A DNA stretch of 64,000 nucleotides from Kitasatospora sp. SUK 42 (lineage in GTDB: Bacteria; Actinomycetota; Actinomycetes; Streptomycetales; Streptomycetaceae). The notes beneath the pieces were generated by a model that saw nothing but the letters and a program-made list of their open reading frames with translations, had not been told where the DNA came from and made no database searches. A program made the position numbers and the translations under genes. The stretch spans positions 483,127 through 547,126 of the forward strand of contig NZ_LFMD02000007.1 of the NCBI RefSeq assembly GCF_015776785.2, in the 5' to 3' direction. Numbering within the stretch: the stretch's first letter is position 1; each line of letters opens with the position of its first letter. Positions 10,371-41,620 of this stretch are shown here, in pieces.

Positions 10371-10527
10371 GAAGGGGCCCGTTCCGCTGGACGGAACGAG
10401 CCCCTTCGGGTGGAGCGCCAGGCCCGGATCGCACGGACTCTTCCTACTGAAAGTAGGACGTGCTCTGGTAGCACCGCTGACGCCTGCTCGGGAGATTTCG
10501 TTTTCCGAAGATCACTTCCTCCCGACG
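10371..10527 (-). ncRNA. Structured RNA element, copy 1
   Basis: A minus-strand transcription unit of about 157 nt. A -10 box TACTGT lies at 10539-10534. The RNA has a variable 5' hairpin (CGGGAG/CTCCCG), a 77-nt core at 10486-10410, and a 16-bp terminator stem (10407-10392 with 10386-10371). The core folds into GUGCU/AGCAC, then UCCUA-CUUUCAG-UAGGA, then GUCCG-UGCGAUC-CGGGC. It differs from the other two copies at two bases only, and these form one compensating pair. A G.U pair in the terminator becomes a mismatch on the other strand, which fixes the orientation. I do not recognise the family; copies 2 and 3 are near 41.3 kb. Confidence 0.75.
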
Positions 10528-10648
10528 AGAAGAACAGTAGCAGGTCATCACGCCTGGTCAGAAATCGAAAACAATCGAACGGGACCGGGCGGGAGTCACC
10601 GGGGCCGGGCGAGGGCCGGGCGAGGAGCGAGCGCGGGGCAGCCCGGCC

Positions 10649-41203: not shown

Positions 41204-41350
41204 CGGACGGGGCCCGGCACCTGTGAAGGCACCGGACCCCGTCCGACGGTGGAGCGCCAGGCCCGGATCGCACGGACTCTCCCTACTGAAAGTAGGGCGT
41301 GCTCTGGTAGCACCGCTGACGCCTGACGAGGAATCATCTCCCTCGCGACA
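41204..41350 (-). ncRNA. Structured RNA element, copy 2
   Basis: A minus-strand unit of about 147 nt. The -10 box TAATAT is at 41362-41357. A 5' hairpin CGAGG/CCTCG (41345-41327) precedes the 77-nt core (41325-41249), which is identical to copy 3. The terminator stem of 19 bp (41245-41204) with TCAC loop contains three G.U pairs that would be A.C mismatches on the plus strand, fixing the orientation. A short CGTTTC follows. Closing pairs CGUCAGGC with GCCUGGCG can form with one G.U pair. Confidence 0.78.
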
Positions 41351-41420
41351 AGAAGAATATTACCAGCTCAACGCCTATGCGCCGAACCACGAACAACCCC
41401 TGCGCCCGCCCCCGGAAACG

Positions 41421-41567
41421 CGGACGGGGCCCGGCACCCGTGAAGGCACCGGACCCCGTCCGACGGTGGAGCGCCAGGCCCGGATCGCACGGACTCTCCC
41501 TACTGAAAGTAGGGCGTGCTCTGGTAGCACCGCTGACGCCTGGCGAGAGATCATCTCCCTCGCAACA
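41421..41567 (-). ncRNA. Structured RNA element, copy 3
   Basis: A minus-strand unit of about 147 nt, 217 nt from copy 2 as a tandem duplication. The -10 box TACCGT is at 41579-41574, the 5' hairpin is GCGAG/CTCGC, the core at 41542-41466 is identical to copy 2, and the terminator stem is at 41462-41421. Here the closing stem CGCCAGGC/GCCTGGCG is fully Watson-Crick, where copy 2 has a G.U pair, so the changes preserve pairing. The promoter region lies close to the start of the divergent hydrolase gene. Confidence 0.78.
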
Positions 41568-41620
41568 AGAAGTACGGTACCAGTTCCGTGATCAGACACC
41601 GAATCGGAGGCGAACCCCGC

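Follow-up and report, generated by a model that had tools for sequence, protein, structure and literature searches.

Three genes in a 64-kb stretch of the genome of Kitasatospora sp. SUK 42 (64,000 nucleotides of contig NZ_LFMD02000007.1, here called the window) almost certainly belong to a genuine transfer RNA (tRNA) lineage, and very probably carry a dual sequence identity, with a glycine-type acceptor end and a glutamate anticodon; we refer to them as tRNA-GlyE. Each gene lies within a 77-nt core that is found three times on the minus strand, at the places given in a preliminary description made from the DNA letters, and that becomes a 73-nt cloverleaf once CAG is taken from its front and C from its end (Table 1). 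The combination of glycine acceptor, glutamate anticodon and swapped elbow pair is missing from that description. We tentatively propose that the three copies are accessory tRNA genes whose products may be charged with glycine by an altered glycyl-tRNA synthetase (GlyRS) and read GAA codons.

The acceptor stem of the window copies has 7 bp (GCGUCAG/CUGGCGC) and is followed by U73 and an encoded CCA, so the earlier statement that the acceptor region does not fit a tRNA is set aside. For the hairpin once taken for a D-like arm with a loop of 5 nt, another reading is possible: a D stem of 4 bp and the 7-nt loop UACCAGA. The anticodon arm has a 7-nt loop, CUUUCAG, with U33 and the anticodon UUC; the variable loop has 3 nt, and the T arm has a 7-nt loop, UGCGAUC. 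Copies 2 and 3 have identical cores, and copy 1 differs from them at two mutually paired positions, which, as described earlier, form a single base pair; this is the first anticodon-stem pair (26-42 in A1), U-A in copy 1 and C-G in the other two. Minimum-energy folds display the cloverleaf with shifted stem edges, and longer transcripts comprising core and flanks are more stable than shuffled sequences (z -3.9, -2.1 and -1.7), whereas the core in isolation is only as stable as its shuffles (z -0.81 and -0.73). The 6.57-Mb genome yielded no fourth copy, the next best match having an E value of 0.04, and it also encodes ordinary tRNA-Glu(UUC), tRNA-Glu(CUC) and tRNA-Gly genes.

By similarity search, the core was found in 25 of 100 related genomes, all belonging to the window's genus (which contributed 61 of the 100), with 1-7 matches each. 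A covariance model, R1, built on 18 of 36 distinct cores, matched 92 of 297 genomes of the family: 30 from the window's genus, with 1-8 matches each when both Kitasatospora types (see below) are counted, and 62 from two other genera (g35 and g38), with weaker scores. The 184 hits kept (short hits L119 and L120 were set aside) reduced to 106 distinct stretches and to 104 after removal of contained ones; two truncated copies (L124 and L048) were dropped, leaving 102 full copies with the 36 distinct cores.

The anticodon loop CTTTCAG and U73 are invariant in the 36 distinct cores, and CCA is encoded in 31 of them. In the 18 cores used for R1, all 377 counted cells over 21 stem pairs are paired, and five pairs have changed on both sides, the anticodon stem being among the covarying parts. 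The earlier view of a structured RNA in several copies, combining a tRNA-like core with a compensatory change, was borne out, and in these 18 cores the differences break no stem. The same 18 cores all have U11-A24 and C13-G22 rather than U13-G22. The scattered sites, and the failure of ARAGORN and of the Rfam tRNA family RF00005 to recognize the window copies, could suggest decaying tRNA pseudogenes spread by recombination; this can hardly be the explanation, being largely refuted by the covariation, as well as by the invariant loop and by a coordinated switch in the elbow.

The switch concerns positions 18 and 55. Among the 101 copies with a 73-nt core (L118, with 72 nt, is left aside), A18/G55 is found in 86 and G18/U55 in 15, with no mixed copies, the counts being uncorrected for kinship. 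Positions 19 and 56 are G and C in 35/35 distinct cores. Since the same syntenic sites hold A18/G55 in some genomes and G18/U55 in others, the species tree and the sites together suggest that the switch occurred at least twice, or once with subsequent recombination.

This variation can be set beside what tRNA finders recognize. At the window copies, Rfam at its thresholds gave no matches, a lax Rfam search gave chance-level matches only, ARAGORN made no calls, and all three copies are missing from the RF00005 list for the genome. Across 12 homologue loci, by contrast with the window, ARAGORN called tRNA-Glu(ttc) in eight, and on further loci it identified eight more homologous genes as tRNA-Glu(ttc). 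Over the 12 loci it called G18/U55 copies and never A18/G55 copies, which fits a drift of the window copies beyond its reach; in terms of our proposal, ARAGORN and RF00005 would miss them because G18-U55 has been swapped for A18-G55. The judgement "not a usual tRNA" was mistaken as to the acceptor, and the lineage is one of true tRNAs, ARAGORN naming the homologues as tRNAs. Elsewhere in the same genome, one ARAGORN call (L190, G000:C22:41507-41579) has a 4-base anticodon (ctga) in an 8-nt anticodon loop, the identity of this tRNA being undefined.

According to the available excerpt of PMC9976931, the glycine determinants are G1-C72, C2-G71, U73, C35 and C36, and those for glutamate are U34, U35, C36, A37, U11-A24, U13-G22:A46 and the lack of base 47, N73 not being required. 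All 36 distinct cores have G1-C72, C2-G71 and U73, and G3-C70 is also of glycine type; C36 is retained throughout, but C35 is replaced by U35 in every core. The glutamate elements U34, U35, C36 and A37 are likewise found in 36/36, with C13-G22 (18/18) and U73 in place of the U13-G22 and the A73/G73 usual in tRNA-Glu. Table 1 of PMC6097841, also available in excerpt, lists U73 in 231,855 of 232,109 bacterial tRNA-Gly versus 46 of 84,287 tRNA-Glu; tRNA-Cys has U73 too (same excerpt).

These elements bear on the possibility that the genes are spare glutamate tRNAs, charged by glutamyl-tRNA synthetase (GluRS) through the anticodon loop and providing extra GAA capacity, perhaps in special growth conditions. 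Such a role would account for the invariant loop and for the tolerance of several copies, and it agrees with the glutamate determinants in the anticodon loop, with U11-A24 and with the short variable loop in the PMC9976931 excerpt. We nevertheless consider it distinctly unlikely: normal tRNA-Glu(UUC) and tRNA-Glu(CUC) are already present, U73 with a glutamate anticodon is nearly absent from bacteria in the tabulated data of PMC6097841, U13-G22 has been replaced, and it would be left unexplained why the elbow was rewired, why the acceptor is still of glycine type and why GlyRS changed (see below).

The relatives in g35 and g38 point to an origin for the glycine part. ARAGORN assigns all 14 genes fetched from these two genera, in 13 loci, to tRNA-Gly(tcc), with R1 scores of 56.1-67.7 bits; g38, presumably Streptomyces, contributes nine genes in eight loci, and g35 five genes in five loci, including one on plasmid pSITFR-21c. 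The search for a known tRNA or Rfam family thus came out negative at the window copies and positive, as tRNA-Glu(ttc) or tRNA-Gly(tcc), at their homologues. The acceptor GCG...CGC, U73 and CCA are common to the tRNA-Gly(UCC) genes of g35 and g38 and the Kitasatospora genes, and the latter therefore look like accessory tRNA-Gly whose anticodon has changed from UCC to UUC. The g38 accessory tRNA-Gly(UCC) genes at L236-L243 have the T loop UGCAAGG and stem-loops downstream, and no common neighbours were seen at these loci. A second Kitasatospora type (L118 and L224-L231) has UUC, a normal elbow and a 4-bp anticodon stem with one base missing, and lacks a full encoded CCA in three of nine genes (L229, L230 and L231). 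The main text of PMC13092985, on 4-bp anticodon stems, mentions neither Streptomyces nor Kitasatospora.

Next, we compared the synthetases of carriers and non-carriers of the tRNA. For the best-matching piece of GlyRS (profile positions 3-235) in 80 genomes, the 21 lowest intact scores belong to 21 of the 25 carriers; the others are G024, G032 and G025, whose scores are normal, and G027, which an unreadable stretch interrupts. With G027 left out, a comparison of 15 carriers with 12 non-carriers placed 8/8 changes near-fixed at 80% within residues 105-151, and with 16 non-carriers 6/6 near-fixed changes fell there (rate-weighted P 0.8-2e-4). These residues lie between and just after the two CxxC zinc knuckles of GlyRS; in mycobacterial GlyRS, a helical insert between the knuckles is likely to lie at the tRNA acceptor arm (PMC12208437, in excerpt). 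In a tree of GluRS and cysteinyl-tRNA synthetase (CysRS), the main-type carriers group as a single clade. We regard a GlyRS change in a putative acceptor-arm insert on the main-type branch as only suggestive. GluRS has seven changes, spread over residues 52-336, and CysRS has three, both being less conserved proteins than GlyRS; G007 and G046 were left out of the GluRS comparison and the tree. D151E and V188T are common to G024 and G032.

Two related candidates were rejected. Ordinary tRNA-Gly(UCC), the only tRNA-Gly gene compared, does not change along with GlyRS, its sequence being unchanged in 14 of 15 carriers (97% in G020) and in the non-carriers G003 and G053. An extra GluRS is no better as a partner, as second copies occur in five genomes independently of the tRNA. 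G007 and G046 have only a divergent GltX, and five other genomes of the 30 searched have second or third GltX copies.

Based on these observations, we envisage the following pathway. The most likely ancestors of the genes would be accessory Streptomycetaceae genes for tRNA-Gly(UCC), the anticodon now being UUC. Every copy would be transcribed singly from a promoter of its own, and the transcript trimmed in the manner of a tRNA. The L shape would be retained through a rewired elbow, in which A18-G55 stands in for G18-U55 and G19-C56 is kept. Glycine would be attached by the cell's GlyRS, whose putative acceptor-arm insert changed on the same branch, and decoding of GAA would insert some glycine at glutamate codons, in analogy to tRNA-ProX, an extra tRNA of Streptomyces and Kitasatospora. 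We rank glycine charging and GAA use first because of this analogy, the glycine-like acceptor and the GlyRS change at a possible acceptor site, ahead of a non-ribosomal donor and, in third place, a spare glutamate tRNA. Charging with glycine appears somewhat more probable than charging with glutamate, and a mistranslating role on the ribosome, argued from analogy, is plausible yet open to doubt; that the Kitasatospora clade has a second independent natural system of encoded mistranslation, with glycine at GAA and a remodelled housekeeping GlyRS, is a bolder claim that we consider fairly unlikely.

A number of observations weigh against this pathway. The RNA lacks C35, one of the main determinants for glycine, and could be charged by GluRS instead, N73 not being required. 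Five of the 36 cores encode no full CCA. Outside Kitasatospora, nine g38 genes carry a D-loop GG together with G55, and the gene on plasmid pSITFR-21c has A18/U55, which breaks the 18/55 rule. As for GlyRS, the summed scores overlap (for example, non-carriers G033 at 487.7 and G055 at 488.5 versus carriers at 481-490); at a looser threshold of 70%, nine of 12 changes fall in residues 105-151 and three outside; this region is more variable in any case and drew attention only post hoc. The carriers being one clade, the GlyRS change amounts to a single event on one branch, and the carriers G024, G032 (its sister) and G025 keep the old residues 105, 112, 113 and 115. The 80 genomes contained no second full GlyRS among the matches listed, some genomes having extra weak pieces. 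The window genes contain 142 GAA and 777 GAG codons, GAA thus not being rare, so strong mistranslation from several copies should be costly. Lastly, tRNA-GlyE is known here from gene sequence alone.

A different use of the charged tRNA has parallels in Staphylococcus aureus. The tRNA, carrying glycine or glutamate, might be excluded from the ribosome by the changes in its elbow and T loop and serve as donor to a transferase acting in trans, for example FemX in the making of cell-wall bridges, a role proposed for the non-proteinogenic tRNA-Gly of Staphylococcus. The altered positions 18 and 55 have a counterpart in the altered GG at 18-19 of three S. aureus tRNA-Gly (PMC4052509, in excerpt), and U73 shields non-proteinogenic Gly-tRNA from DTD (PMC6097841, in excerpt); FemX is present in all 30 genomes searched, and the UGC of the T loop recurs in g38 accessory tRNA-Gly. 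However, neither FemX nor the LanB C-terminal domain (28 of the 30 genomes) tracks the tRNA, one of the two genomes lacking LanB being a carrier, and a LanB-type or an extra FemX partner was rejected for want of such a correlation. No Fem- or LanB-type transferase is found among 60 neighbour proteins scanned with Pfam. G19-C56 is retained, and a donor of cell-wall glycine would not require the UUC loop to be invariant and would be expected to keep C35 for GlyRS. We therefore judge a donor role unlikely.

The genes are accompanied by flanking elements (Table 1). Folding places strong stem-loops 3' of all three window copies, and the -10-like boxes lie in a CTGnTAnnnT context conserved among copies; in copy 1, the sole copy scanned, strict scans passed neither a sigma-70 promoter nor a U-tract terminator. 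In the leaders, at least seven of eight pairs form in one register in 59 of 102 (26 distinct), and pairs 3, 5 and 7 show GC/CG or GC/AT swaps among those 59, which agrees with the reported 5' hairpin of changing sequence and persisting pairing, the swaps being counted only in rows picked for pairing. Equally long leader stems are found in 93 of 102 real leaders versus 39% of shuffled leaders, in a search that often chose stems other than the 8-pair register. The -10-like box is immediately preceded, in copy 1 (window 10541-10556) as in several homologues at site A, described below, by an inverted repeat (CAGG...CCTG), which is a candidate operator.

Table 1. Features of the three tRNA-GlyE copies in the window
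Feature	Position	Strand	Remark
Copy 1 tRNA cloverleaf, 73 nt with U73 and CCA included	10411..10483	-	anticodon UUC, elbow A18/G55
Copy 1 5' leader hairpin, TCGGGAG...CTCCCGA	10488..10525	-	homologues also with leader hairpins
Copy 1 -10-like box TACTGT	10534..10539	-	CTGnTAnnnT context
Copy 1 terminator-like 17-bp hairpin	10371..10407	-	
Copy 2 tRNA cloverleaf	41250..41322	-	
Copy 2 5' leader hairpin, GCGAGGGA-GATGA-TTCCTCGT	41326..41346	-	
Copy 2 -10-like box TAATAT	41357..41362	-	
Copy 2 terminator-like hairpin	41205..41244	-	inner part in computed fold
Copy 3 tRNA cloverleaf	41467..41539	-	identical to copy 2
Copy 3 5' leader hairpin	41543..41563	-	
Copy 3 -10-like box TACCGT	41574..41579	-	
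Copy 3 terminator-like hairpin	41422..41461	-	inner part in computed fold

Ninety-five copies lie in 20-kb regions that could be sorted by neighbours within 900 bases: 16 at site A, 33 at site B and 46 elsewhere, the figures for A and B being possibly too low because the rule works at short range. Under this rule, the 46 copies outside the two conserved sites lend some support to the suggestion of a mobile RNA gene. Site A lies beside an operon with a Roadblock domain, which we take to be CvnABCD-like, and site B lies between an alpha/beta hydrolase gene and an IclR gene; the sites L091, L093, L142 and L144 have some neighbours in common. Beyond synteny at A and B, no one gene family adjoins most copies. 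Pfam assigns unrelated functions to the 60 neighbour proteins (30 in the window, and 30 next to copies outside it), with no aminoacyl-tRNA synthetase among them; prolyl-tRNA synthetase (ProRS) was not searched for genome-wide. As there is no constant neighbour gene, we infer that the RNA acts in trans.

The surroundings also bear on a regulatory role, in which an uncharged tRNA mimic would titrate a toxin that cleaves tRNA-Glu(UUC), a modification enzyme or a synthetase. A decoy would fit the invariant anticodon loop, the altered body, the multiple copies and the promoter-like and terminator-like elements of their own; set against this are the retained acceptor stem and U73, the CCA in most cores, and the lack of a toxin or partner gene beside most copies, which together make it very unlikely.

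Several other candidates were rejected: (i) a partner gene next to the copies, the neighbours away from sites A and B being mostly unrelated; (ii) a small peptide, as the frame relative to the core varies from copy to copy, and some copies have ACG in place of the possible ATG; (iii) a riboswitch or cis-regulator, given the terminator-like hairpin of its own and the many sites with different neighbours; and (iv) a phage tRNA, neither the window core nor L118 having a phage match. At some loci the copies are clustered. Four tandem copies with an exact spacing of 211 nt (L135:9775-10493) suggest a recent tandem duplication; at L105:976-7064, two tandem tRNA pairs flank Pepco and caspase/HD-CE genes (iHD-CE and wHTH-Hsp90-associated domains), and a homologue of the caspase/HD-CE protein lies beside a tRNA copy at L137:11641-16541.

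Among the matches listed in our literature searches, there was no report of tRNA-GlyE, nor of any tRNA of glycine type carrying the anticodon of glutamate. Canonical Kitasatospora tRNA-Glu(UUC) has UUC, U33, A37 and U11-A24 in common with tRNA-GlyE, but differs in A73, a 4-nt variable loop and normal D and T loops. The tRNA-Other of Bacillus cereus is a tRNA-like small RNA outside normal translation. Closer in body are the accessory tRNA-Gly(UCC) genes of g35, g38 and pSITFR-21c, which resemble tRNA-GlyE in the acceptor end, U73, the stem-loops that follow and their dispersal, with G55 in 10 of 14, whereas they have UCC, a 4-nt variable loop and a different D arm. The non-proteinogenic tRNA-Gly of S. 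aureus, used by FemXAB, are also accessory, of glycine type, with U73 and a D loop altered at 18/19 (PMC4052509 and PMC6097841, both in excerpt). In these excerpts, the S. aureus type has GG 18-19 replaced and a T stem weakened for EF-Tu, whereas tRNA-GlyE has A18 and keeps G19 and G19-C56; its anticodon is UUC, its positions 18 and 55 co-vary, and no link to FemX was found.

The annotated tRNA set of a genome defines its presumed translation, and each genome of the Kitasatospora clade has 1-8 additional tRNA genes (counting both types), not all of which ARAGORN detects. Their 18/55 states amount to a natural experiment on covariation in the tRNA elbow, and the GlyRS of the clade may show adaptation to a tRNA bearing the wrong anticodon. 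The nearest known system is tRNA-ProX (tRNA-ProA/N/T), which occurs with ProRSx in Streptomyces and Kitasatospora (PMC11415595 and PMC10365949, both in excerpt). Both are extra tRNAs of the same bacterial family, in which body and anticodon belong to different amino acids and a synthetase variant is implicated. In contrast to the proline body and the Ala, Asn or Thr anticodons of tRNA-ProX, tRNA-GlyE has a glycine acceptor and UUC, and it also differs in its normal U33, its several dispersed copies and its altered elbow. Where tRNA-ProX has ProRSx, tRNA-GlyE has no second GlyRS among the matches listed, and mistranslation by it is a proposal made from sequence. On that proposal, tRNA-GlyE would offer a second test case, besides tRNA-ProX, for deliberate mistranslation in soil actinomycetes.
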